From the IMG/VR virus record IMGVR_UViG_3300049846_000915, positions 1-31,069 of that record: a DNA stretch of 31,069 nucleotides. One strand, written 5' to 3'. The notes under the pieces were generated by a model. It was given only the letters and a program-made list of their open reading frames with translations, ran no database searches and was not told the DNA's origin. Source of the stretch: a virus. Both the position numbers and the translations under genes were made by a program. Below are positions 16,628 through 31,054 of the stretch, in pieces; the stretch's first letter is position 1; every line of letters starts with the position of its first letter.

Positions 16628-16837
16628 TTAGTACGTAAACGGGTTGGATTGACGACGCGGGGTGTCTGGAAGTGCGCTGAGTATCTGACCGGGGTTAGTT
16701 GCGGACATAATGCGGACGCCAAGGGGGCCGGTTAGTGCTGGTGCGACAACCGACACCACGGCAATTTGGTTCTGTTCTAGCTGCTCAATACGCGCCAGCA
16801 TTTGCGATGCGGTTAGGGGTAGGAATATCTCGCTCAC
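16628..16837 (-). CDS. Small hypothetical structural protein, 69 aa
   Basis: I place the start at GTG 16837, overlapping the upstream stop as GTGA, with GGAGGG about 10 bases upstream. The GTG at 16855 would extend further into the preceding gene. The product starts MSEIFLPLTASQMLARIEQLEQNQ (a helix) and continues with APALTGPLGVRIMS and a Pro/Arg tail. It may be a connector or trimerising segment of an appendage. No family is recognised. Confidence 0.55.
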   Translation of the reverse strand: MSEIFLPLTASQMLARIEQLEQNQIAVVSVVAPALTGPLGVRIMSATNPGQILSALPDTPRRQSNPFTY

Positions 16838-17571
16838 GACGTTGTGGCCCTCCACTTGATCGTCAGCGCAATCTCACCGATAATCGCGGTCTTGGTGCCC
16901 TCAGTTGCGCGAAGGTGGGCGGTACAGGCTAGCGACTTGGCACCATCCGGCACATTGAGCGCAGACGGGAAAGCGTCCAAGACTGCGCGGACCACTCGGT
17001 TCCCGCTGGTGTCGCTGGTGATACTTTCGGTCAGTCCGCCCACGGTTGCGGCTTGGTCGGCGTCGGTCGTGTTGAGCTTGATTTCAGCTAGAAGCGTGTC
17101 GATTGCGGCGAGTGACGCGGCACCGATATACGTTAGCGCAGCCTCAGTTACGGCAAAGTCTAGGATGATACTATCGCCCATGTAGATTTCGGCGCTATCT
17201 GCCGTTGTTACCGGGGTCAACGCCACACCGTTACTGGTCGCTATGAGTGACCCGATTGCGTCGGTATCGTATGAGAAACCTTCTCCGCTAAACTCGGCAG
17301 GCGCAGCATAGTATTCAATACTTGGCTTGACGACTGGACACGTCCATACGCCAGACGGTATGATAAACCGAATAGGGTGCCTACCCTCTGAATCACCCGC
17401 ACTTTGCAGAGTCCAGGTCGGTTGACTACTGAGTGCTACATCGTCTTCATCGTACCAGATCAGATCCCAACCGGCTGCCTGCATTGCCGCTTTAGTGGCA
17501 TATGACAAAGGAACGCCGGTCGGGCTGAAAAGGTAGATAGCCTGCGGGATTTCGTCGCCAGTGATCGACAC
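16834..17571 (-). CDS. Putative neck/appendage protein, 245 aa
   Basis: The GTG start at 17571 is supported by GGAG 8 bases upstream. The N-terminal domain (IYLFSPTGVPLSYATKAAMQAAGWDLIWYDEDDVAL, then RHPIRFIIPSGVWTC) is beta-rich with Trp and Tyr. The middle carries DSIILDFAVTEAALTYIGAASLAAIDTLLAEIKLN, and the C-terminal domain is again beta-rich (SLACTAHLRATEGTKTAIIGEIALTIKW). It follows the decoration protein after an 80-base gap. A neck, appendage or decoration role is plausible but not recognised. Confidence 0.6.
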   Translation of the reverse strand: MSITGDEIPQAIYLFSPTGVPLSYATKAAMQAAGWDLIWYDEDDVALSSQPTWTLQSAGDSEGRHPIRFIIPSGVWTCPVVKPSIEYYAAPAEFSGEGFSYDTDAIGSLIATSNGVALTPVTTADSAEIYMGDSIILDFAVTEAALTYIGAASLAAIDTLLAEIKLNTTDADQAATVGGLTESITSDTSGNRVVRAVLDAFPSALNVPDGAKSLACTAHLRATEGTKTAIIGEIALTIKWRATTS

Positions 17572-20108: not shown

Positions 20109-20135
20109 GGCAGGCTATATGGTTTGCATATGCTC

Positions 20136-20189
20136 AAAATTGTTTGTTTCACAATTACGGCACTAGGTAATTGTGTAAAAAACAATTTT
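20136..20189. promoter_or_regulatory. 23-bp inverted repeat between the divergent head operons
   Basis: Arms at 20136-20158 and 20167-20189 match at 21 of 23 positions around an 8-base loop, in an AT-rich stretch. Each arm contains TTGTG plus an AT-rich tail, which resembles a pair of -35 boxes. On the plus strand TTGTGT (20171-20176) lies 18 bases before TACTAT (20195-20200), a plausible promoter; the minus-strand counterpart TTGTGA (20149-20154) has only weak -10 candidates. The site may be a shared operator for the capsid and portal genes. Confidence 0.6.
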
Positions 20190-20219
20190 CAGCTTACTAT
20201 TTCCGCCTACCATTTTGTG

Positions 20220-20450
20220 ATGGCACGAACTGCGGCATCCATACAGGCGGAAATTGACCGTCTGGAAACCTTCCTATCTAGTGAAGCGACCACAATTCAG
20301 AGCACCTCGGCGGACGGTACCTCAGTAACGCATATAAACCGGAAACAGGCTGAGGACCGTCTAGACCGTCTCTACATCCAACTAGGCCGCGCTAATGGAA
20401 CCTCGCCCATGTTCCCGCGTGGAGTCGTTACCGGGCTGGGTAGACGATGA
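20220..20450 (+). CDS. Head-tail joining protein (lambda gpW-like), 76 aa
   Basis: The start is ATG 20220 (MARTAASIQAEIDRL); the open frame continues upstream to 19938 across the inverted repeat and into the capsid gene, which is not credible. The protein has the gpW plan: an N-terminal helix (QAEIDRLETFLSS), a short beta hairpin (SADGTSVTH), a second helix (RKQAEDRLDRLYIQL) and a basic tail. In lambda, gpW seals the portal channel after packaging. It overlaps the portal gene by ATGA, matching the lambda W-B order. No Shine-Dalgarno site precedes it. Confidence 0.75.
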   Translation: MARTAASIQAEIDRLETFLSSEATTIQSTSADGTSVTHINRKQAEDRLDRLYIQLGRANGTSPMFPRGVVTGLGRR

Positions 20451-22420
20451 AACGTAAAAGCAAACCGTCCCTTTTCTCGGTAGCTAAACGTTGGGTTTCC
20501 GCTCCATTCAAGAAACGCGGACTTTACGACGCGTGGATGAGCACTAGCGACTACCTCGGGCTACCCGGCGGCGGTGGCTATCAAGTCCTAGATCCTCAGC
20601 GTAAAATGATAAACGGGCTACAGAGGCAACTTGCCAGCTATAGCGCAAACGAACTCGCAAGCCTGAGTCTACCGCAGCTTCGCGCCCTATGCCGTAAGCT
20701 GGAACGCGAGAACGCAACCGCCCGTGCCGCTGTTGAGGCTGGGGTGGCGTGCTTCGTCGGTACCGGGATTGCACTGGAACCGGACACGGGGGATAAGACC
20801 TTAGACAAGTTGCTTGCGGCTGAGTTTAAAGACTGGTGCGCCGGTTGTGATGTTACCGGTACTCGCTCCATATACGACCTACAGGCGGAAGGTTTCCGGT
20901 CGTGGTTCCTTGCTGGTGAGCATCTTTGGCGGTTCGTCGTTTTGCCCGAGTTAGTCGATCAAGGTAAGATTCCGCTGGCGATTCTGCCGCTAGATAGTGA
21001 ATGGATCTGCCACGGCATACCGGAAATAAAGAGCGAAACGCTAACCCGTGTGGCTGGCCTTGAACTAGACAAGTATGCGCGTCCGATTGCTTACTGGCTT
21101 AAGAATCCGGAAGAAACTGGAAACGATAAAGCTGAGCGTGTTCCTGCTGAACAAATCGCCCACGGTTTTGAGCATCGCAGACCATTACAGAATCGCGGGG
21201 AGCCTTGGCTTGCGCCGGTAATTGAGCGCATCCACCAAGAGGGCGACCTAATTGACACTGAATTAAAGGCCGCCATCAACTGCTCAGGTATTGCCGTAGT
21301 TATTACGAGCGACTATCACCAGCCGCTAGACGACGGTACAAGCGACGATCAACGCACAGACGGAACCGCAACGGACCCGGCACAGGAAATCGGTATCGGT
21401 TCGGTTGCGCGTGCGCTGCCTGGCGAACAAGTCCAGGCTTTCTCGCACAACCGGCCCGGCCAACAAATCGCGCCATTTACCGGACTCCTGCGCGGGTCCA
21501 TCGCCGCGTCTTGCCGTATCTCGCGCCGGTTCCTAGATAGTGACTATTCGCAAGCTAATTTCAGTAGCCAACGCGCCGACGAACAAGACCACCAACGCTT
21601 ACAGGCTCCGGTTCGTGAATCGTTCGGCCATTCAACGATTGGCGCGGCTTACCTCAAGGTGCTGCCTTACTTATGTGCTAAGATTGGTAAGGCGGTCCCG
21701 GTCCGTAAAGCGTACCGCCTCCTGCCCGATGGCCAACCGTACGTCAATCCGGTTGACGACATTCGCGCAGTCTGCTTGGCGGTCGCTGCCGGTCTGACTA
21801 CGTGGGAAGCTGAGATTGCCAAACGCGGCGGTGATCGTGATGCGGTATGGGCACAGCTTGCCAAGGAACATCAAGAGGCGCAGCGTCTCGGACTCAATCT
21901 GAATCTCTCAGGAAATAATAGCGCACCGCAGCCACAGGCGGAACCAAAAGACGATGCGGAACAAGAGGACGGCGCGGAAGACGATACGGAAGACGACACA
22001 GAGGACGATGAAGAAATGAAACGCGCCGACTTCTTAGAAGGTCTGCGGACTATCATGCAAGCGAATAAGCCAGCCCCAGCGCCTGCGCATGAGGTAAGGG
22101 TTATAAACGAGACGCGCATGGACGAAAAGACGGCGGAAATAATGGGTCGCGCTATTGCCGAGAATACGCGTAAGATTGAGATACCAGCAACCGTCGTCAA
22201 CGTCCCCGCGCCAGTGGTAAACGTAGCTGCGCCAACGATTCGCAACGAAATCCCAGCACAGCCGCCAGCACTTGCGCCGATTGTCAATGTTGCTGCGCCT
22301 AACGTGACTGTGGCTGCGCCTAATGTTACGGTTGAAAATCAGACCATTGTACCTCAGCGCAGCATACGCGCATCACAGCAACGCGACGGCTCGCTATTGC
22401 TTGAGCCACAAGGGGAATAA
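20447..22420 (+). CDS. Portal protein (lambda gpB-like), 657 aa
   Basis: The portal is identified by length, by its place directly after the gpW gene and by gpB-like segments: TARAAVEAGVACFVGTGIAL (residues about 90-110), then AEGFRSWFLAGEHLWRF, ILPLDSEWICHG, RRFLDSDYSQANFSSQRADEQDH and a YLKVLPYLCAKIGKAVP region. It makes the dodecameric ring through which DNA enters the capsid. Residues about 500-525 are a run of Asp and Glu, followed by Pro/Ala/Val repeats (VVNVAAP, NVTVAAP) not found in lambda gpB and likely an extended flexible tail. Translation is coupled to gpW by ATGA. Confidence 0.85.
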   Translation: MKRKSKPSLFSVAKRWVSAPFKKRGLYDAWMSTSDYLGLPGGGGYQVLDPQRKMINGLQRQLASYSANELASLSLPQLRALCRKLERENATARAAVEAGVACFVGTGIALEPDTGDKTLDKLLAAEFKDWCAGCDVTGTRSIYDLQAEGFRSWFLAGEHLWRFVVLPELVDQGKIPLAILPLDSEWICHGIPEIKSETLTRVAGLELDKYARPIAYWLKNPEETGNDKAERVPAEQIAHGFEHRRPLQNRGEPWLAPVIERIHQEGDLIDTELKAAINCSGIAVVITSDYHQPLDDGTSDDQRTDGTATDPAQEIGIGSVARALPGEQVQAFSHNRPGQQIAPFTGLLRGSIAASCRISRRFLDSDYSQANFSSQRADEQDHQRLQAPVRESFGHSTIGAAYLKVLPYLCAKIGKAVPVRKAYRLLPDGQPYVNPVDDIRAVCLAVAAGLTTWEAEIAKRGGDRDAVWAQLAKEHQEAQRLGLNLNLSGNNSAPQPQAEPKDDAEQEDGAEDDTEDDTEDDEEMKRADFLEGLRTIMQANKPAPAPAHEVRVINETRMDEKTAEIMGRAIAENTRKIEIPATVVNVPAPVVNVAAPTIRNEIPAQPPALAPIVNVAAPNVTVAAPNVTVENQTIVPQRSIRASQQRDGSLLLEPQGE

Positions 22421-22422
22421 GC

Positions 22423-22860
22423 GTGGTCAGTTACAATAAATTCCAAGACTTTTCAGAACAGCTTATTCGTGGCGTCCACGATTTTGACGCGCATACGTTC
22501 AAGATTGCGCTTACCAATACCGCACCGGTTGCTACTCAGGCTAGTTTAGATACGGTCACAAACCACCCGGCACCAGCCGCGACTAATGGCTATACCGCAG
22601 GCGGAACCGCAACAACCATAACGATTAGCGAAACGACCGGAACCACGACCGTTAGCGGCACACAAGTAGTATTTACTGCCTCAGGCGGAAACCTTGGACC
22701 GTTCCGGTATGCGATCCTTTATGACGACACGGCAACAAGTCCGGCTGATGCTCTGATTGCGTGGTGGGACTACGCAAGCAACGTCACGCTTGCCGATGGC
22801 GAGACGTTCACCGTCAAGTTTAACGATGCCAATCCTGGCACGATCTTTACCCTGGCCTAA
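22423..22860 (+). CDS. Phage structural/surface protein, 145 aa
   Basis: GTG 22423 has AGGGGA about 7 bases upstream. The sequence has recurring features of a small phage protein family that I recognise by pattern: a helical start (NKFQDFSEQLIRGVHDF), THxFKIALTN-like strands, NGYTAGGTATTIT, VVFTASGGNLGPFRYAILYDD, then IAWWDYASNVTLADGETFTVKF. This is a beta-rich virion protein likely to belong to the fibre or decoration class. It is the first of five appendage-type genes downstream of the portal. Confidence 0.7.
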   Translation: MVSYNKFQDFSEQLIRGVHDFDAHTFKIALTNTAPVATQASLDTVTNHPAPAATNGYTAGGTATTITISETTGTTTVSGTQVVFTASGGNLGPFRYAILYDDTATSPADALIAWWDYASNVTLADGETFTVKFNDANPGTIFTLA

Positions 22861-22863
22861 CCT

Positions 22864-23223
22864 ATGCCCGGTCCCTTTCTCTACTCAGACCGAGTAAAAG
22901 ATACCACGACCACAACCGGCACGGGAAATATCACGCTTTCCGGTACTGCTCCGACCGGCTACCAAGACTTCAACACAGCCTTCGGTACCAACGCTTATTT
23001 CCATTACTGCATAGCTCTTGGGTCTGAATGGGAGGTCGGTATCGGCTACTTGTCGGCATCTACCACGCTCGTCCGCGATAGCGTGCTAGAGTCCAGTAAT
23101 AGCGATGCTGCTGTAAACTTCTCCGCTGGAACCAAGGATGTGTTCTGCACCATCGCCTCACAGAATCCAAACAACCTGCGTGGGCAATACTACGCTTGTG
23201 CTCGCGCTACCTGCATGCCCTGA
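22864..23223 (+). CDS. Phage structural/tail protein, 119 aa
   Basis: The protein begins MPGPFLYSDRVKDTTTTTGTGNITLSG and continues GYQDFNTAFGTNAYFHYCIALGSEWEVGIGYLS, then DSVLESSNSDAAVNFSAGTKDVFCTIAS. This order of motifs (RV-x-D-T-T-T-TGTG, SEWEVGIG, VLESSN) is common in phage tail or head-fibre proteins. It has no membrane segments. The start has no clear ribosome site and follows the previous stop by three bases. The receptor role is not proven. Confidence 0.7.
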   Translation: MPGPFLYSDRVKDTTTTTGTGNITLSGTAPTGYQDFNTAFGTNAYFHYCIALGSEWEVGIGYLSASTTLVRDSVLESSNSDAAVNFSAGTKDVFCTIASQNPNNLRGQYYACARATCMP

Positions 23224-23232
23224 GAGTGACCT

Positions 23233-23664
23233 ATGCCCGGCCCAAATAACTACCCAATCTACACGAAGGCTGCTGATGTACAGTGGGTGGAGTCATGCAC
23301 AGCCGCGAACAATACGGTAGACCTTACCAGCGGAACCAGCTACCTCGCCTTTACGGCAGACGCCACGAACGGCGGATTCATACGAGAAATCCGCGTCAAG
23401 GCTAACCCGGCCAACAATACAGCCGCAACCGTTGCGCGATTCTGGTTGAATAACGGCAGTACAACCGGAACAGCGGCTAACTCCGCAATGATTGGTGAGC
23501 TTGGTCTTCCAGCTACCACGGCAAGCGCAACGAACGCAATGCCAGACTTCATCTATCCAGTGAACATGCCTATCCCGGCTGGCTATAAGATTTATGTAAC
23601 CTTCGGCACTGCGCCCGGCGGCTCGGGTGAGTTCACCGTAACGGTGTTCGGCGGGAAATACTAA
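23233..23664 (+). CDS. Phage structural protein, beta-sandwich type, 143 aa
   Basis: ATG 23233 follows GAGAG with spacing about 7. The protein is rich in Thr, Asn and Ala: LTSGTSYLAFTADATNGGFIREIRVKANPANNTAATVARFWLNN, then PDFIYPVNMPIPAGYKIYVTFGTAPGGSGEFTVTVFGG (cited by positions 30-75 and 105-142). The motif PAGYKIYV and the general layout match a family of small phage surface proteins. It resembles the minus-strand protein at 16200-16619. Probable surface role. Confidence 0.7.
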   Translation: MPGPNNYPIYTKAADVQWVESCTAANNTVDLTSGTSYLAFTADATNGGFIREIRVKANPANNTAATVARFWLNNGSTTGTAANSAMIGELGLPATTASATNAMPDFIYPVNMPIPAGYKIYVTFGTAPGGSGEFTVTVFGGKY

Positions 23665-23666
23665 CC

Positions 23667-24608
23667 ATGTCAATGGACGCCTTTGGCTTTCCAGATAATG
23701 CCATATCCCGCGTGCAACGGTTTTATGCGAACCAGTACACCGGAGCAACGACAGCGTGGCAAATCTGGACCAAGCCGACCGGATGTGCAATGGCCTCCAT
23801 TATCTGCATTGGTGGTGGGTCTGGCGGCGGTGGCGGATGCGGTGGCGCGGCTGGCTCTGCCCGTGGTGGCGGTGGCGGCGGCGGGTCTTCTGGCATTTCT
23901 CGGTATCTTTACCCGCTAGAGTTCCTGCCGGATAATCTCTATATTTTGGTCGGTTCTGGTGGTGTTGGTGGCGCGGCTGGCTCGTCTGGTAGCGGCGGAA
24001 CCAGTGGCGCGGGGCAACTTTCTTATGTGAGCCTGTATCCTAATACGGCAGCAAATAATCTTTTTGCCGTCTCTGGTGCTGCCGCCGCAACCGCAGCAGC
24101 GGGAGGTACAAACGCTGGCGGCGGTACATCTGGTGGCGCTAGCACCATCGCAACCGTTGCCGGTGCGGTGTTTTCTCAGTGGGCGGTCTGTACCTTCCTT
24201 GCTGGTCAGGCTGGCTCTGCCGGTGGTGCTCAAACCGGCGCAAACGGAGCGAACATCACGGTTGGAACCGCCGCGATGATCCTAGGTGGAACCGGTGGCG
24301 CAGGAACAACGAGTGCTGACTTTACGGGCGGAATCTTTTCCGCAGTAGCTAATACTCCATTTATTGCAACCACAGCGGCGGCAGGTGGCGTGGCTGGTGG
24401 CAATGGTTTCCGCTACGGCAAGTTCCCGCTGATCTATGGCGGGTCTGGTGGCGGTGCGTCCAATACTGTTGCTGGTGGCGCAGGTGGAAGCGCAGGAACT
24501 AACTCCATGCTCTTTGGTGCTGGTGGTGGCGGTGGCGGTGGTGGCGTTACAACTGGCGGACGTGGCGGAGACGGCGGCGGCGGAATCGTGATTATTACCT
24601 GCTGGTGA
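23667..24608 (+). CDS. Glycine-rich adhesin-type receptor-binding protein, 313 aa
   Basis: Residues 45-300 are dominated by Gly, Ala, Ser and Thr with long GGGGGG runs (positions about 51-75 and 285-310), ending GGGIVIITCW. Gly-rich loops on a polyglycine-II-like scaffold are typical of T4 gp38-type adhesins, which determine host range. An N-terminal stretch (ISRVQRFYANQYTGATTAWQIWTKP) would anchor it. It lies in the fibre block behind the portal. Short glycine-coding repeats make it prone to recombination. Confidence 0.75.
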   Translation: MSMDAFGFPDNAISRVQRFYANQYTGATTAWQIWTKPTGCAMASIICIGGGSGGGGGCGGAAGSARGGGGGGGSSGISRYLYPLEFLPDNLYILVGSGGVGGAAGSSGSGGTSGAGQLSYVSLYPNTAANNLFAVSGAAAATAAAGGTNAGGGTSGGASTIATVAGAVFSQWAVCTFLAGQAGSAGGAQTGANGANITVGTAAMILGGTGGAGTTSADFTGGIFSAVANTPFIATTAAAGGVAGGNGFRYGKFPLIYGGSGGGASNTVAGGAGGSAGTNSMLFGAGGGGGGGGVTTGGRGGDGGGGIVIITCW

Positions 24609-24611
24609 TCC

Positions 24612-25004
24612 ATGCTAGGCAACGGACCACTTAGCGCAAATCCGCTTAGTACGCTACCTAGTTCTCTGGCGGCATACACCATAAATGCCGAGCCTGGATC
24701 ATTTTCGCTAACCGGCTCTGGTGCATCCACGCTTTACGGTCGGCAAGTAGTCGCTGGTGCCGGTTCGCTATCTGTAACCGGGGCAAACGCGAGCACTTTA
24801 GCCGGGCGAATTTTGCAATCCGGCGCAGGCTCGCTCACGATTACAGGGGCAGGCGCAACCTTGACTTACTCAACCGGGGCCACTTCTAATACCGCAAACA
24901 GTAGCGGCGTACCGGTCGGCATGCCATTAGTTCCGCAGCCTAGACCGTGGCAGAAAGACGCTCGGTGGTTGGCTGCGGTGTTCGTTGGCGGGGGAATTCG
25001 TTAG
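24612..25004 (+). CDS. Repeat-containing phage surface protein, 130 aa
   Basis: Three copies of a 22-24 aa repeat are visible: AEPGSFSLTGSGASTLYGRQVV, AGAGSLSVTGANASTLAGRILQ and SGAGSLTITGAGATLTYSTG (residues about 27-90; each written in full is no more than about 22 residues). Such repeats (G-S-x-S-x-T-G-x-x-A-S-T-L) are found in phage surface proteins. A Pro-rich tail (GVPVGMPLVPQPRPWQ) follows. The stop codon overlaps the stop of the convergent minus-strand zinc-ribbon gene by 3 bases. Confidence 0.65.
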   Translation: MLGNGPLSANPLSTLPSSLAAYTINAEPGSFSLTGSGASTLYGRQVVAGAGSLSVTGANASTLAGRILQSGAGSLTITGAGATLTYSTGATSNTANSSGVPVGMPLVPQPRPWQKDARWLAAVFVGGGIR

Positions 25005-25264
25005 TCTAATGACCGTGCCTGCGCCGGTACATGGTCGTACCTGCGTCCGCACGCCTGGCATTGCACGTTCGCTACGATCACGCCAGAATCTATCCGCCGC
25101 CATTTCGGATCAGTTGATCGGCGTGGCTGTGCGCGTCCGCAGCATGGCGGGTTGCGTAAGGGCAGGATCTCAAACGCTTCGGTATTGATCTCTGCCGGCT
25201 GGCATGTCGGCGCGGCTTCCGGTGTCGGTGGTCGCCCACGTCCACGCTTTTCGGTCTGCGCCAT
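25001..25264 (-). CDS. Small zinc-ribbon protein with AT-hook-like motif, 87 aa
   Basis: The start is ATG 25264 (MAQTEKRGRGRPP); a TTG at 25288 is an alternative. The N-terminus carries GRGRPP, similar to an AT-hook. The C-terminal half has CC at PPCCGRAQ and CQAC at VQCQACGRRYD, about 25 residues apart, a zinc-ribbon-like arrangement, preceded by DPKWRRIDSGVIVANVQ. Small zinc-ribbon proteins at the edge of phage cargo or lysis regions are often transcription regulators (Ogr/Com-like), but the spacing here does not match those families exactly. It is the last gene of the cargo operon and ends tail-to-tail with the plus-strand fibre gene. Confidence 0.6.
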   Translation of the reverse strand: MAQTEKRGRGRPPTPEAAPTCQPAEINTEAFEILPLRNPPCCGRAQPRRSTDPKWRRIDSGVIVANVQCQACGRRYDHVPAQARSLD

Positions 25265-25284
25265 TCGGTTATTTGGTGTAAGTG

Positions 25285-25827
25285 TCAAGGGTCGATCCTT
25301 TCAATGGTTGTGCCCCGGCTGCGAATCATGGCAAAGGTATAGGCAATGTCATTTTCCTCGCGCTCCCAACGTTCGGCGGTTCGGTCCTCGCCCTTGTATC
25401 CGCTCGCGTCAATGGTGCTGATCGACTTGCGACCGTCCGCACCGTAGAGGGTAATTGCGGTTGCGCCTAGCTGTTCGGCAAAGCATAAGGCAGACTGAAC
25501 GCCCCAATTGATTGGCCTGCCCTCTTTCGTATGCTGGTGGATTAGCGCGATATTTTCCCATGTCAGGATTGCTAACGGATCGTTGTACCGTAAAATAAAA
25601 CGTTTGGCATCATCGTAAGCATCTGGCGCAACAAGAAAGCCGTGGCGTGGTTGTTTGAGGTCGTCGCCAAATAAACCGCGGTACCACACCTTATCCGGAG
25701 CGCATACCCAATCGGAACTAACGACCTTCGCCGCCGCGTTTACGGCTATAGTTGTGTCGTACTCAATGGTTCGCTCTGACCATCGGCGCACCAATGACTG
25801 ACCGGGGCAGCAAATTGCTATTTTCAT
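25285..25827 (-). CDS. DUF115/MptE-like or GT42-like protein, 180 aa
   Basis: The protein starts MKIAICCPGQSLVRRW, with a GxSL-type motif near the N-terminus, followed by IAVNAAAKVVSSDWVCAPD and by NWGVQSALCFAEQLGATAITLYGADG. These steps (GPSL-like, then N-x-A, then D-W, then an SG/G-V-x-x-A-L helix and L-x-G-x-D) match the shared fold of DUF115/MptE-like proteins and GT42 sialyltransferases, in which they contact the nucleotide and the acceptor. The C-terminus ends with a helix-strand (AYTFAMIRSRGTTIERI), as in GT42. Given the CMP-sugar synthetase gene in the same operon, a transferase that uses its product is an attractive inference; catalytic residues are not proven. Confidence 0.55.
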   Translation of the reverse strand: MKIAICCPGQSLVRRWSERTIEYDTTIAVNAAAKVVSSDWVCAPDKVWYRGLFGDDLKQPRHGFLVAPDAYDDAKRFILRYNDPLAILTWENIALIHQHTKEGRPINWGVQSALCFAEQLGATAITLYGADGRKSISTIDASGYKGEDRTAERWEREENDIAYTFAMIRSRGTTIERIDP

Positions 25828-25828
25828 G

Positions 25829-26092
25829 TTAGATTGAGTCCTGTACTATTTTCTGTAATGTCGGCACTAGTATACACTTTGGTTCTTCAACCGCTTTCTT
25901 GGTAAGTAAGTAGGAATACACTGAATCTAAATGCCAAGCCACTATTGCGTTGTAACCTTTTGTAAATGCGGCTATGCTCATGGATAGATTGCGCATCATA
26001 AGACTTGGCGGTTCTTTTATAAGCTTCCTCCATTCGTGCTTATTTACGGGTGACTGTAGACGGTATGCGTTTATATTCATTGTTCCGTACAT
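25829..26092 (-). CDS. Hypothetical protein of AT-rich composition, 87 aa
   Basis: The frame starts at ATG 26092 (MYGTMNINAYRL); ATG 26080 is an equally possible start. The protein is mixed helical (EWRKLIKEPPSLMMRNLSMSIAAFTKGYNAIVAWHLDSVYSYLL, residues 20-63 of the longer form) and contains no recognisable motif. The gene is clearly richer in A and T than the neighbouring operon genes, a sign of recent acquisition. One base separates its stop from the next start. Confidence 0.6.
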   Translation of the reverse strand: MYGTMNINAYRLQSPVNKHEWRKLIKEPPSLMMRNLSMSIAAFTKGYNAIVAWHLDSVYSYLLTKKAVEEPKCILVPTLQKIVQDSI

Positions 26093-26138
26093 CCGTTGAT
26101 GTGGTAGACCATGTGATAAGGAAAGTTATTTAGTCGCA

Positions 26139-26246
26139 TCATTTCCGCTTGCCCATAATCTTGTAGAAGACGTACCATAGAAGTGGAATCGTAATAAGCG
26201 CGAACGGCCCAGCGATCATGCAAAAGATTATCTCGACGGCGGTCAT
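26139..26246 (-). CDS. 35-aa single-span membrane protein
   Basis: The sequence MTAVEIIFCMIAGPFALITI continues as PLLWYVFYKIMGKRK. It has one hydrophobic span (about residues 4-29) and a positively charged C-terminus, so by the positive-inside rule the C-terminus stays in the cytoplasm. Its ATG shares one base with the TGA of the upstream gene (TGATG), consistent with translational coupling. No ribosome site is visible. It may be a holin-type or pump-accessory micropeptide, or a membrane anchor for the sugar operon. Confidence 0.55.
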   Translation of the reverse strand: MTAVEIIFCMIAGPFALITIPLLWYVFYKIMGKRK

Positions 26247-26464
26247 CACGAGACTGACCACATCAGCGGCGGTGGAACCGGACGCATCCCAGCGGCGTGC
26301 AATTCATCGCTCAGGATTCGATATGCGGCCAGATTGCGCTCGTTGGCGATCTCACATGCGAGATAGGCCCCGCACCCGAGGTGAGCAATTCGCCATAAGA
26401 TTCCCTTCTCTGCGAGTATATCGTCTGGCGTCCACTGGTCCATGCTAACAACCACTTCGTTCAT
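26246..26464 (-). CDS. Hypothetical protein, 72 aa
   Basis: The start is ATG 26464 (MNEVVVSMDQWTPDD), sharing ATGA with the CMP-sugar synthetase stop; the frame up to 26548 is a shadow. The protein has a helical middle (LAEKGILWRIAHLGCGAYLACEIANERNLAAYRILSDELHAAG, residues 19-61) and a Pro-rich end. Two cysteines lie in the middle. It is not recognised; the coupled position suggests participation in the cargo pathway. Confidence 0.6.
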   Translation of the reverse strand: MNEVVVSMDQWTPDDILAEKGILWRIAHLGCGAYLACEIANERNLAAYRILSDELHAAGMRPVPPPLMWSVS

Positions 26465-27186
26465 GCGTCCACCTGCCCGTTGATGCTGTATACGAGATGA
26501 TGCCGGAAATCCGAGAACGCGGACAACTCGCCATGCAAGCAGCGCCACAACCGCCTCGCCTCGTCGAATTGTTCCGGTGTGTCAATGTCCAGTGTTGCCC
26601 ATGACGGTAATTCGGTCACAAGTAGCGGTAAGCCCCAGCGTTTACCCTCCGAAACCGCAGCCCGATCCCCGATTTGAACCGTGTTTATCTCCTGAAATGC
26701 GTGGAAATTGCAGTCTTGGGAGCGTGGATAGGGGCCTGGAAACCACCCATTTTCGGCTCCCATGCCGCTGATTTTCCATGTCCAAGGCACGGTAACGGCC
26801 ATAGTTATAGCCCCACGCGCCCTCATTTTTACCACTTTTTGCACCATTTCGCGTATTAGATGCGGGGTCCGGAGCGGGGTTGCAGGCTGGAGCGTTACAA
26901 CGTAGTCATATACTGCACCGTTCTGCTCGCATTCCTTGAGCGCATGCTGTACGGTTCTAGATAAACTGTCTGGTTCGCCTTGGCTCAGGTGTGCGGGTCG
27001 GTTTACGACCTCGGGAACTGGCCACTCAGGCGAATCAGACGACACCACCACTCTATCGCACACCCCGCTAGAGATTGCCGCATCATATGCGTGCATAACT
27101 AGCGATTTTCCGTCAATCTCTTGCCAGTTCTTGCGCGGGATTCGCTGCGAACCCGCACGCGCAGGGATTACGCACAAGACTTTCAC
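26461..27186 (-). CDS. CMP-sugar synthetase family protein (NeuA/KdsB-like), 241 aa
   Basis: GTG 27186 overlaps the methyltransferase stop (GTGA). The N-terminus IPARAGSQRIPRKN (residues 7-20) is the signature of the acylneuraminate cytidylyltransferase family, where it grips CTP. VVSSDSPEW (47-55), LQPATPLR (99-106) and a C-terminal DIDTPEQFDEA follow in the order usual for the family. These enzymes activate nonulosonic acids (Neu, Leg, Pse) or KDO by forming the CMP-sugar. Length (about 230 aa) is normal for a single-domain member. The sugar cannot be told from sequence. Such a gene in a phage suggests modification of the virion, of host surface glycans, or of DNA by a sugar. Confidence 0.85.
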   Translation of the reverse strand: MKVLCVIPARAGSQRIPRKNWQEIDGKSLVMHAYDAAISSGVCDRVVVSSDSPEWPVPEVVNRPAHLSQGEPDSLSRTVQHALKECEQNGAVYDYVVTLQPATPLRTPHLIREMVQKVVKMRARGAITMAVTVPWTWKISGMGAENGWFPGPYPRSQDCNFHAFQEINTVQIGDRAAVSEGKRWGLPLLVTELPSWATLDIDTPEQFDEARRLWRCLHGELSAFSDFRHHLVYSINGQVDA

Positions 27187-27704
27187 GCGAAATCCACCAC
27201 GATAGCGAAACGGTCGCGGCCTAATGGGCGAATCATCATCTCGGACCGGTGAGCTACGTTGCGGATTCGTTCACCCCACCAGCCAGCGTCCTCTTGGATT
27301 AGGTGAAGTTCGACCTTTTCGCCGTCTACCGTGTGTACGTCTGACATGTTCGCAATCGTGAAGATAAAACCGTACGTTGCCAGATCGCGCATTTCAACCA
27401 GTACACGGTCGATTTTCGACTCATGGATATGCTCCAATACGTCGCAGCTAATCACATAGTCATATTCACTGGACAGCATATTGCGACCCAGGCCGGGATC
27501 GTAGCCCCACGCTTTGCCGCTAGTTTTTGTGTTGATGTGGTTGACCAAGTGACCACGACCGCAACCGTAATCTAGGAAGGTCGCGGGGCATCGGTCGATA
27601 ATATCTGGCAGAATTTCACGGGCGCACTTCATACCATCCGGCATGTACCCATTCTCATAAAGCCAGCGGTAATCCGCCAGCGTGGCAAGACGCGGAACGT
27701 TCAC
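27183..27704 (-). CDS. SAM-dependent methyltransferase, 173 aa
   Basis: I set the start at GTG 27704 (NVPRLATLADYRWLYENGY), overlapping the upstream stop as GTGA; the frame reaches 27779 but that part lies within the preceding gene. Motif I is FLDYGCGRGH (residues 43-52), where SAM binds, and YDYVISCDVLEHIHES contains the post-I acidic and motif II region. This is a class I Rossmann methyltransferase of the UbiG/Methyltransf_23 group that commonly modifies small molecules or sugars. It is shorter than many stand-alone members. In this operon it may methylate the sugar whose activation the next gene performs, or a related nucleotide; this is inferred. Confidence 0.85.
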   Translation of the reverse strand: MNVPRLATLADYRWLYENGYMPDGMKCAREILPDIIDRCPATFLDYGCGRGHLVNHINTKTSGKAWGYDPGLGRNMLSSEYDYVISCDVLEHIHESKIDRVLVEMRDLATYGFIFTIANMSDVHTVDGEKVELHLIQEDAGWWGERIRNVAHRSEMMIRPLGRDRFAIVVDFA

Positions 27705-28138
27705 GGTTTCTTGACGTGTGCGACGTGGCGGCATTCGCGCTCCCAGCCTGGATGACGGTCTGCTAACTCCTTGAGACATACCCGCGCATTCGGGTCCGGT
27801 TTCGGGTTGCGGGTGATCTTTGTGCGAAATCGAGAGACGCCACGGCTTGCGAGGTAATCCACAACCCGACCGATAGATGGAAAACCGTTCGCCATTTTGT
27901 ACGCGACGATTTGCCGGGCGGCTACAGGTTGCCGGTCTTCTTCCAATGCGTGCAAGCGTAACGGGTTGGCAAGCCTTTCGTTGATCGCATTGGTTACGCG
28001 GTTCATGTAGATATGTAATCGGTGGTCAACTTCTAGTTCGCGGCGAGGTTCGTCCTCGGTTGCGGCTATAGACTTGCGTGCGATTGGCGTGCATTCTACG
28101 TCTTGAATGAACTCGTCGGGAAGTATTGTATTATTCAT
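27701..28138 (-). CDS. Hypothetical first gene of the cargo operon, 145 aa
   Basis: The start codon at 28138 lies 7 bases beyond the -10 of promoter P2, which would place the transcription start on or next to the ATG (leaderless mRNA). The protein has an acidic/polar N-terminus (DEFIQDVECTPIARKSIAATEDEPRRELEVD), a helix (YMNRVTNAINERLANPLRLHALEEDRQ), and then QIVAYKMANGFPSIGRVVDYLASRGVSRFR, which looks like a helix-turn-helix or other nucleic-acid-binding segment. It overlaps the methyltransferase by 4 bases. No family is recognised; its location suggests a regulator or the first enzyme of the cargo operon. Confidence 0.65.
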   Translation of the reverse strand: MNNTILPDEFIQDVECTPIARKSIAATEDEPRRELEVDHRLHIYMNRVTNAINERLANPLRLHALEEDRQPVAARQIVAYKMANGFPSIGRVVDYLASRGVSRFRTKITRNPKPDPNARVCLKELADRHPGWERECRHVAHVKKP

Positions 28139-28144
28139 TTGGGC

Positions 28145-28172
28145 ATTGTATGCGGGGTTCGGGGCGCGTCAA
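28145..28172 (-). promoter_or_regulatory. Promoter P2 for the cargo operon
   Basis: On the minus strand TTGACG (28167-28172), 16 bases, TACAAT (28145-28150). Each box differs from the sigma70 consensus at a single position. The 28138 ATG lies where transcription should start, so the first message may be leaderless. The -35 box is part of the duplicated 16-bp block. Confidence 0.7.
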
Positions 28173-28183
28173 GATTGGGTTTT
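28168..28183. repeat. 16-bp direct repeat, copy 1 (upstream of P2)
   Basis: GTCAAGATTGGGTTTT, identical to 28369-28384. Read on the minus strand it is AAAACCCAATCTTGAC and includes most of the -35 box of P2. Confidence 0.9.
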
Positions 28184-28202
28184 TAGTTATAGAAACGACA
28201 AA

Positions 28203-28225
28203 CCCCAGCGGTTAGGCTGGGGTCT
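28203..28225 (-). terminator. Intrinsic terminator
   Basis: Perfect stem CCCCAGC/GCTGGGG around a 6-base loop (28203-28209 and 28216-28222), extended by three flanking pairs, and followed on the minus strand by TTTGTCGTTTC, a moderately U-rich tail. It lies downstream of the terminase gene and P1 and upstream of P2. It would end the terminase mRNA and the candidate RNA. Confidence 0.7.
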
Positions 28226-28287
28226 GGCGTCCTCATCGGCTTGGTAGGCTTGGCCCACCGCACTTAGAGCGCATGATTCGGTCCCCT

Positions 28288-28309
28288 GTATTCAGTGGCC
28301 ACTGAATAC
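28288..28309. repeat. 22-bp perfect palindrome
   Basis: Half-site GTATTCAGTGG followed directly by its reverse complement, without a spacer. In DNA this is a perfect two-fold site of the type bound by dimeric regulators or cleaved by type II enzymes (it contains TGGCCA). In RNA it could make a 9-bp hairpin with a GGCC loop. Confidence 0.9.
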
Positions 28310-28345
28310 CAGGCAGATTGCCCCGAACGCAATCTTTAGGCTGGT

Positions 28346-28373
28346 ATTATATGCCATTTAGATACCCTGTCAA
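28346..28373 (-). promoter_or_regulatory. Promoter P1, perfect sigma70-type consensus
   Basis: On the minus strand TTGACA (28368-28373), 16 bases, TATAAT (28346-28351), both perfect. It is directed at the candidate RNA and the terminator at 28203. The -35 region overlaps the second copy of the duplicated 16-bp block. Confidence 0.75.
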
Positions 28374-28384
28374 GATTGGGTTTT
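28369..28384. repeat. 16-bp direct repeat, copy 2 (upstream of P1)
   Basis: Identical to 28168-28183. The two copies occupy the same place relative to the -10 boxes of P1 and P2, so a bound regulator could act on both. Confidence 0.9.
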
Positions 28385-28416
28385 GATACGTTGTATAAGT
28401 TATGAATCTTCATAAG

Positions 28417-30408
28417 TTATCGTCTTGGCCCTACGGTTCCGATTCGGCCGTATTTCGGTTTGCTGCGGGTTGCGGCTACGGTTTGGATGCCAGCCCTAAA
28501 CCGAGACAAGGCCAGAGCGTACCCGAAAACGTCCAACCAGTCGTGGCGGCGGCCTGAAACTTCCTTCCAATGCGCGGGAATTATTGTGCCGTCCGGTTTC
28601 TTCGTCTCGGCTACCCATACCTTACCACTCAGGTGTAAAAGTAAGGGTTCTTTAGATCGCAGTCCACGGGGCAGCATACCGGACGCGGGGGAGTAAGCTG
28701 GACGCAATAGGGACGCGTGTACCCAGCGGCGGACGGTATCTGAAAAAATGTTATGCAAGTATATGGGCCATCCGTCCGGCTGGCGCAATTCCACGAACGC
28801 TTTAGCCTCTGGCGGTAGGTCAGGGATTAGTTTACCGAGTCGCTTGAATCCTTCCTTATCGGCACCACGTACCGCCTGCCACCCACGCATGCCGCGTAGC
28901 CAGTTCACGATTTCGCTTGTTACGTCACCGTCACCAACGTCAATCCCGCGCATAATTGGAACCATTGCCTCGTCGCGGCCTTCCTTGCGCCAGCCTTGGT
29001 TGAATTTCGCGTCAAGTTCTACGTTCACGCGGCGGCGGTCGGCTGCGGTTGGTGGTCTTGTTGCTTGTCCGTTTGCATATGGGACTAAGAGTTCGTACCC
29101 CCAATCAACCACACACCACCGGTCATCTGGACCGATACCCGCCACGCCCCAATAATGCCGGTCGTCCTGCACGTCAACCGCCGCGACGAGATGCGTTACC
29201 CAATGTGGGACTACTCGCTTGTCGTAATCGCTAGCCATTGAGACTAGGGCTAATCCTTCGTTGGTAATGTCAGCTGCGCCAACCGGGTCTTTGAATGGTC
29301 GGCAGAGTTGGTCACGGTGGAATGAGCGCATCGGACCGTAATCTTGCTTGGCTAGTGCTCTAGTTGCTCGCCAGTGTTCCGCCGCAAGTTGGCCCATGCT
29401 TCGGAGACTAGAATCGAGTCCGGTCCATAATAGTCCGAACGCAACGGTCAGTGGTTCGGCTCCAATTACTGCGCCGGTCTTCTGGTCAACCTGCTGCCCG
29501 CTGTGTACGCAGCGCCAGTCACGCAATGCGCGTTGACGGTCGTCCTCGGTCCATAACACGGCACAGCCAGCACAGGTATAGCGTGCGCTTGCGATTGCCG
29601 CTGGCTCGTCTGTGTCCGAGTAGCTCACACGCTCCCACTCTAGGGCTTGCCAGTGTCCGCAATGGGGACATTTGAAATGCAAGCGGGTTTCAGTCGATTC
29701 TCGGTAAAAGGCCAGAATTATACTAGCGTCTTCGCCCTCATCGCCGTCCAGCTTGACGGTGGAGGTTAGAATTCGTATTGCCTTGTCCCCGTAGCTGTCG
29801 GCGCGTTTCAAGACTAGCTCAACGCGGTGCCGACTCGGGAAGCTGTCAACCTCGTCCACAGCCACTACCGCCGCAGTCACCGCAGCCTGTGCGCTTTCGC
29901 TTGAACCGCCGCCAGGGATTAGGTACAGGGTCCCCGCTCTTGCGTTAGTCTTTGGGTCGCGGAAGGTCACGAACTTAGGGGTCTGACTGCCCTTGCTGCC
30001 TTGTCCGCGATCTGGCAACCAGGCACCATAACCGGACTTGGCAATGGACGGTTGCAGCTTTCCGGCCCAACCCTCTTGCAGCTTTGTAAGCGTTGGTTGA
30101 CTATAGACGCACGGTTGACGTAAGACGGTAAGCGAACGCAAGAGCGGGACTAGAACGGTACTAAGACTCTTGCCGGTCTGGACCGCGCCAACCGCAATGA
30201 TGCGTTGCCACCGCCCGCTTGCTATTTCGCGCATGATTGCGTGGTGGGCGGGGTCGGCTTCCGGAGTATAACGCGAGTCGGCTAGCGGACCATCGGGAAT
30301 GGTGATCGTATGGCAATAGTCAGCGTACCCGATGGGACGCTGGGGCGGGAGCGCAACCGCCCGAGCTTGCCGGTTGAGGGCGGACAGGTCTGCGAATCCG
30401 TCACTCAT
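28417..30408 (-). CDS. Terminase large subunit (GpA-type), 663 aa
   Basis: This is the ATPase-nuclease that packages DNA into the procapsid. It has a Walker A-like loop GAVQTGKS (residues 74-81), a Walker B VVAVDEVDSF (181-190) with catalytic Glu, a zinc-ribbon-like pair CPHC (247-250) and CAGC (279-282), and a C-terminal nuclease domain whose first acidic residue is likely in LVAAVDVQDD (around 412), with further acids in GIDVGDGDV and HDWLDVFGYAL. This is the terminase_GpA family of lambda; such phages generally cut at cos sites. Its ATG overlaps the stop of a tiny ORF (ATGA). It is on the opposite strand from gpW and portal, which is unusual. Confidence 0.95.
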   Translation of the reverse strand: MSDGFADLSALNRQARAVALPPQRPIGYADYCHTITIPDGPLADSRYTPEADPAHHAIMREIASGRWQRIIAVGAVQTGKSLSTVLVPLLRSLTVLRQPCVYSQPTLTKLQEGWAGKLQPSIAKSGYGAWLPDRGQGSKGSQTPKFVTFRDPKTNARAGTLYLIPGGGSSESAQAAVTAAVVAVDEVDSFPSRHRVELVLKRADSYGDKAIRILTSTVKLDGDEGEDASIILAFYRESTETRLHFKCPHCGHWQALEWERVSYSDTDEPAAIASARYTCAGCAVLWTEDDRQRALRDWRCVHSGQQVDQKTGAVIGAEPLTVAFGLLWTGLDSSLRSMGQLAAEHWRATRALAKQDYGPMRSFHRDQLCRPFKDPVGAADITNEGLALVSMASDYDKRVVPHWVTHLVAAVDVQDDRHYWGVAGIGPDDRWCVVDWGYELLVPYANGQATRPPTAADRRRVNVELDAKFNQGWRKEGRDEAMVPIMRGIDVGDGDVTSEIVNWLRGMRGWQAVRGADKEGFKRLGKLIPDLPPEAKAFVELRQPDGWPIYLHNIFSDTVRRWVHASLLRPAYSPASGMLPRGLRSKEPLLLHLSGKVWVAETKKPDGTIIPAHWKEVSGRRHDWLDVFGYALALSRFRAGIQTVAATRSKPKYGRIGTVGPRR

Positions 30409-30495: not shown

Positions 30496-30897
30496 TTACC
30501 CATTCGCTATCCGTTGCCGCACTAGCAGACATTGCGCCTCAATCGTCGATCTGATCTGGTCGCGCATGCTGGCGGGAATCTCGGGCGGGAGTGCGAGCGT
30601 GCATGCGTGTGGGAGTTGGTCTAGTTCGGATACCCAGCGCAGGTGTTCGGCTTCCAGGTTGTCTCGGACTTGTGCGGCCTGGACCAACGTGCCCTTGAGC
30701 GTGTCTAGTTCTAGTTGCCGCTTGAGTGCGTCTAGCTGCTCAGTGTCCGCCTTGGCCTGCTGTAGACGTAGCGTTGCGTCCTCTAGTGACTCGTCGGGGT
30801 TTGCGCGACGGTCTACGCCAGAGGGGAGGCGCGGGTATATGTTCTTGCGACCTGCAAGGGACTGGTGCGCTGGCGTTAAGTTTTCGCCTCTGGCCAT
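30496..30897 (-). CDS. Putative terminase small subunit, 133 aa
   Basis: The start is ATG 30897 (MARGENLTPAHQSLAGRKN), a base after the stop of the 51-aa gene; the frame to 30915 uses a TTG inside that gene. The protein has a basic N-terminus, then a long coiled-coil-like helix (DESLEDATLRLQQAKADTEQLDALKRQLELDTLKGTLVQAAQVRDNLEAEHLRWVSELDQL, residues 36-96) and a C-terminal helix. Position immediately upstream of the GpA-type large subunit, and the charged coiled coil, suggest a small terminase (DNA recognition) subunit; a classical helix-turn-helix is not evident. A DUF1441/Nu1-like relation is possible but unproven. Confidence 0.6.
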   Translation of the reverse strand: MARGENLTPAHQSLAGRKNIYPRLPSGVDRRANPDESLEDATLRLQQAKADTEQLDALKRQLELDTLKGTLVQAAQVRDNLEAEHLRWVSELDQLPHACTLALPPEIPASMRDQIRSTIEAQCLLVRQRIANG

Positions 30898-30898
30898 G

Positions 30899-31054
30899 TT
30901 ACAGGGGTATCCCAATTAATACGCCCACGCCCACGCCAACAACAAACGCCACCCATATACGCCAAGTGCCAAAAGAGCAATAGCTGTAATTATAGTTTGT
31001 TTGCCACCTGCTGTCCCATGTGGAATTATGCTGGTTGGTCGGTTCTTTGTCCAT
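30899..31054 (-). CDS. 51-aa membrane protein upstream of the terminase genes
   Basis: ATG 31054 has AAGGA at spacing about 7. The sequence MDKEPTNQHNSTWDSRWQTN is polar, then YNYSYCSFGTWRIW, and the C-terminal part VAFVVGVGVGVLIGIPL forms one membrane segment. It stops one base before the small terminase start. Its size and single span fit holin-like or other small phage membrane proteins, but the position upstream of the terminase is not typical for a holin. Function not assigned. Confidence 0.65.
   Translation of the reverse strand: MDKEPTNQHNSTWDSRWQTNYNYSYCSFGTWRIWVAFVVGVGVGVLIGIPL

Follow-up and report, generated by a model that had tools for sequence, protein, structure and literature searches.

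The window, that is the whole stretch of DNA analysed here, is a linear virus record of 31,069 bases, possibly a fragment. It mainly holds structural and packaging genes. The source is an unusual, environmental phage, from a lineage with almost no sequenced relatives. On the minus strand, the genes of the small (TerS) and large (TerL) terminase subunits are followed by a cassette composed of a promoter (P1), a region encoding a predicted RNA, an intrinsic terminator and a second promoter (P2), and then by a cargo operon (Table 1). The cassette fills the longest intergenic gap of the gene set; the runners-up are 214 bp and 112 bp long, and the 214-bp gap may contain a short ORF (16628-16855). 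The preliminary description of this DNA had singled out the cassette as the only long non-coding gap.

The structure model of the first cargo protein is uninformative (pLDDT 38). Within cargo genes 27779-25285, the cytidylyltransferase is nearest to the PseF and KdsB models, yet stays under their cut-offs, and no family was found for the 180-residue protein. This set of genes looks like a sugar modification set.

Table 1 Features of the cassette and of its surroundings, in minus-strand order
Feature	Coordinates	Strand	Remarks
Terminase small subunit (TerS)	30496-30915	-	
Terminase large subunit (TerL)	28417-30408	-	Upstream of the cassette
Promoter-RNA-terminator-promoter cassette	28416-28139	-	278-bp gap between TerL and the cargo operon
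Box 1, AAAACCCAATCTTGAC	28369-28384	-	Overlaps the P1 -35; identical to box 2
P1, sigma-70-type promoter	28346-28373	-	TTGACA-16-TATAAT; 12/12 consensus match
Predicted untranslated RNA	28190-28341	-	About 145-152 nt; four hairpins and the terminator
Hairpin 1	28316-28335	-	AGATTGC-GTTCGGG-GCAATCT; begins a few nt into the predicted transcript
Perfect 22-bp palindrome, GTATTCAGTGGCCACTGAATAC	28288-28309	either	
Candidate 13-codon ORF, MRSKCGGPSLPSR	28233-28274	-	ATG at 28274
Intrinsic terminator	28199-28226	-	11-bp stem, 6-nt loop; interrupted U-tract
Box 2, second AAAACCCAATCTTGAC copy	28168-28183	-	Overlaps the P2 -35
P2	28145-28172	-	TTGACG-16-TACAAT; 10/12 consensus match
First cargo gene	27701-28138	-	145 aa; no relative found
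Remaining cargo operon	25001-27779	-	Methyltransferase, CMP-sugar cytidylyltransferase-like protein, small ORFs, 180-aa ORF, CxxC protein

The perfect promoter and the second, near-consensus one announced in the preliminary description were both recovered on the minus strand, where they had been placed. Among 1000 Markov copies of the whole window, 3 contain a 12/12 site, and in one of the 1000 such a site is joined within 260 bp by a second one of 10/12 or better in the same orientation. When the gap itself was shuffled, a 12/12 site appeared once in 20,000 sequences and two co-oriented sites of at least 10/12 appeared in 51 of 20,000. Because a 12/12 promoter is rare in both kinds of control, the promoters are beyond chance. 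The distance from the -10 element of P2 to the cargo ATG is 7 nt and no Shine-Dalgarno sequence precedes this ATG, which argues that the mRNA started at P2 is most likely leaderless, a prediction made from sequence.

The two promoters have more in common than their consensus elements. An exact 16-bp repeat, absent from the preliminary description, forms the boxes that cover both -35 regions, and GCATANAATNCC is common to the surroundings of the two -10 elements. The combined box and -10 pattern has no equally good match elsewhere in the window. The identity of the boxes suggests that one factor reads P1 and P2, or that both are copies of one promoter module.

The palindrome had also escaped the preliminary description. 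It is the longest of the window, the next one having 12 bp. In 60 Markov windows the longest palindrome reached 20 bp and none reached 22. The element may be the core of a second RNA hairpin or a DNA operator. In a rival reading, the whole cassette may be a switch acting at the DNA level. A regulator of the phage would then bind both boxes, an inverted 9/12 copy of the box and the palindrome, the hairpins would arise as by-products, and the P1 RNA would be no more than a terminated leader. The exactness of the repeat at P1 and P2 and the perfect palindrome argue for such a switch, as does the inverted third copy, located near the P1 start (28328 on the plus strand), although about 0.3 box copies at 9/12 are expected by chance in a gap of this size. 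In addition, CCCAATCT corresponds to one arm of a dyad that flanks promoters in unrelated phage contigs. However, the scan that found these contigs, run with the box and -10 pattern on viral contigs, gave 9 matches that represent about 3 independent sequences, which is close to the number expected by chance according to a rough estimate; the 9 matches were not counted as homologues of the cassette. The transcribed strand also folds better than its complement (see below), and no regulator was identified, the model of the first cargo protein being of no help. We regard DNA-level switching as the main rival to the moron junction proposed below, at well below even odds.

In the unrelated contigs (L006-L013), the promoter lies within the dyad ATACCCAATCT-TGACAATAAATC-AGATTGGGTAT, upstream of differing genes. 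This dyad looks like a repeated operator.

Transcription from P1 would start near 28341-28337. An RNA of about 145 nt is the natural reading from this promoter and no ORF longer than 26 aa is found on the RNA strand of the predicted transcript, in agreement with the transcript of about 140 nt without convincing ORF that had been proposed. Two stem-loops had been proposed as well, but the predicted fold has four hairpins in addition to the terminator. The whole predicted transcript folds with an energy of -66.5 kcal/mol (z = -4.1, compared with -1.6 for the opposite strand). After removal of the terminator, z rises to -2.35. In a scan of the whole window using fewer shuffles, the terminator-free RNA has a z value of -1.7, equalled by about 11% of 110-nt stretches. 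Much of the fold signal therefore comes from the terminator and the structural case for the body of the RNA is weak. The loop of hairpin 1 could pair with a downstream CCGAAT; among shuffled linkers, 3.4% offer an equally good pairing. Moreover, a self-complementary GGCC loop could allow two copies of the RNA to dimerize. A search of the window with Rfam 15 returned nothing at the gathering cut-off (best sub-threshold E = 0.57), and a tRNA and tmRNA search gave no match. The earlier statement that no known RNA family is recognised thus holds at gathering and at relaxed thresholds.

The intrinsic terminator announced in the preliminary description was recovered: its stem is trailed by TCGTTTCTAT, and the T-run is found on the minus strand only. 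Five terminator-like sites were counted in the region for 5.3 expected, a number that is not above chance, and among the sites listed the stem retained here is the strongest. Its U-tract is interrupted (UUUGUCGUUUCU). An interruption of this kind is unfavourable for a small RNA of the Hfq type.

Two forms of attenuation at this terminator were considered. In the first one, raised in the preliminary description as an attenuator leader, alternative base pairing would control termination. No antiterminator fold was found to compete with the terminator: the best fold that lacks the terminator stem is 23 kcal/mol less stable. The cargo also possesses a promoter of its own downstream. A base-pairing attenuator is accordingly disfavoured. 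In the second one, ribosomes translating the candidate 13-codon ORF would control the terminator. An AGGGGA motif is located about 8 nt before the ATG of this ORF, and its stop codon lies a few nucleotides ahead of the terminator stem. However, the ORF has no run of regulatory codons, the same 23 kcal/mol stands against a competing antiterminator and P2 would bypass the control. A leader peptide attenuator is very improbable.

The 5' part of the predicted RNA recalls the HK022 put RNAs, in which a pair of 5' stem-loops binds RNA polymerase and counteracts termination. As in putL, two stem-loops one nucleotide apart are predicted near the 5' end of a transcript made from a strong promoter. putL and putR, identified in the HK022 genome from their resemblance to each other, were used to build a covariance model. 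In the gap, this model scores no higher than 2.7 bits, as compared with 93 and 75 bits for the true putL and putR, and no sequence match was found either. HK022 put was rejected on these scores. Since a terminator also directly follows the stem-loops here, a put-like activity of the P1 RNA is highly improbable. The functional put RNAs themselves have fold z values near zero, so a weak z is compatible with function. There is a slim chance that the P1 transcript is a new phage RNA that targets packaging or the polymerase of the host and has no sequence relationship with put or pRNA. Its functional parts would then be the pair of 5' stem-loops, a possible pseudoknot between loop and linker, and the GGCC loop, which is self-complementary. 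For a packaging role of the P1 transcript, its position is the sole point in favour. The likeliest role for the predicted RNA would be that of a regulatory small RNA.

Relatives were searched in IMG/VR viral contigs, scanned by TerL, capsid, portal, a portal alignment, the first cargo protein, the palindrome and the promoter pattern. In parallel, 84,980 prokaryote genomes were scanned by TerL and a portal motif, and the cassette itself was compared by blastn with phages and plasmids. None of the viral, bacterial, phage or plasmid collections scanned yielded a relative of the cassette. One close relative was obtained, a 6.5-kb contig (L004) that carries the portal and capsid genes and ends before the cassette. 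Its portal is 81% identical over the best segment. The last gene of the cargo operon, coding for the CxxC protein, is similar to the first, cut gene of L004.

The two sequences differ in gene order where window positions 20109-25004 are set against L004 positions 1-2060. In L004, the CxxC gene, a small gene, the portal gene and the capsid gene follow each other on a single strand. In the window, the small gene, the portal gene and five further genes are inverted relative to the CxxC and capsid genes. This difference may be an inversion, a mosaic or a misassembly. A 20-nt near-palindromic repeat of L004 flanks the inverted stretch (AAATAGTGCAGACACTATTT at 135-154 and AAATAGTGCAAACACTATTT at 1977-1996). 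At the inversion breakpoint of the window, between the divergent capsid and portal genes, is an AT-rich inverted repeat with 30-nt arms (20129-20196), which is the strongest fold of the window (z about -6). The portal of the window (20447-22420) is also extended at its C-terminus, by about 150 residues that include an acidic stretch and repeats resembling VNVAAP; L004 does not have this extension.

Four reference phages that have the same gene set, S-LBS1, CRP-831, RcDormio and Mano, are distant relatives (about 25% identity). In these phages, TerL is directly followed by a small gene and the portal gene. In the window, the cassette and a number of cargo genes come in between, behind TerL. Because of this insertion, seen in none of the four reference phages, the layout of the region fits a moron as defined in PMC2629481. 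It also has promoter and terminator signals of its own, namely P2 and the terminator upstream of it. We propose as the best-supported reading, with a probability of about 0.5, that the cassette forms a control junction where moron-like cargo has been inserted behind the terminase genes.

According to this proposal, one intrinsic terminator would close the minus-strand packaging transcript (TerS-TerL) and would also end the short P1 transcript. The strong P1 would produce an abundant untranslated RNA with a hairpin near its 5' end and the terminator hairpin at its 3' end. P2 would then start the leaderless mRNA of the cargo, which encodes the methyltransferase, the CMP-sugar cytidylyltransferase and others. 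The modest fold of the terminator-free RNA, the interrupted U-tract and a cassette without any homologue in the collections scanned count against the moron junction with its P1 RNA, and the palindrome and the repeated boxes fit DNA-level control equally well. Should this RNA be produced, it would be a candidate small RNA of a sparsely sequenced lineage. The cassette would then also illustrate how inserted genes can be insulated compactly from a late operon, with one terminator ending two transcripts and a leaderless promoter immediately after it. Otherwise, the region provides a neat illustration of moron control.

Known phages have control regions that resemble the cassette. Small phage RNAs of the same general type have been described, and oop and 6S have been reviewed (PMC12197685). 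As in the lambda 6S (pR'-tR') and oop (pO) units of lambdoid phages, a strong promoter is followed here by a short untranslated RNA and an intrinsic terminator. The P1 product would probably resemble 6S or oop as a stable small RNA. No sequence similarity to these units was found and no Q is known in this phage. The cassette is also placed differently, behind TerL and ahead of cargo that has its own promoter.

As at the lambda pR' late leader, the strong promoter, the short RNA and the terminator precede genes, in the same order. At pR', Q binding and terminator readthrough have been described (PMC6266700). The terminator studied here could similarly be conditional: P1 would always be on and give a short terminated RNA, until a later phage antiterminator permits readthrough and raises cargo expression. 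However, the cargo has its own promoter past the terminator, no Q gene was seen among the scanned genes of the window, which is possibly a genome fragment, and no qut-like site could be defined. A conditional terminator of this type is unlikely.

Among the closest known counterparts of the proposed moron junction is the P22 ant moron, which comes with the sar antisense RNA (PMC2629481). The insertion site and the cargo are different, the genes inserted here being putative sugar-modification genes. In both cases, genes expressed independently, by prediction in the window, are placed in a morphogenesis operon, together with an RNA in the P22 case.
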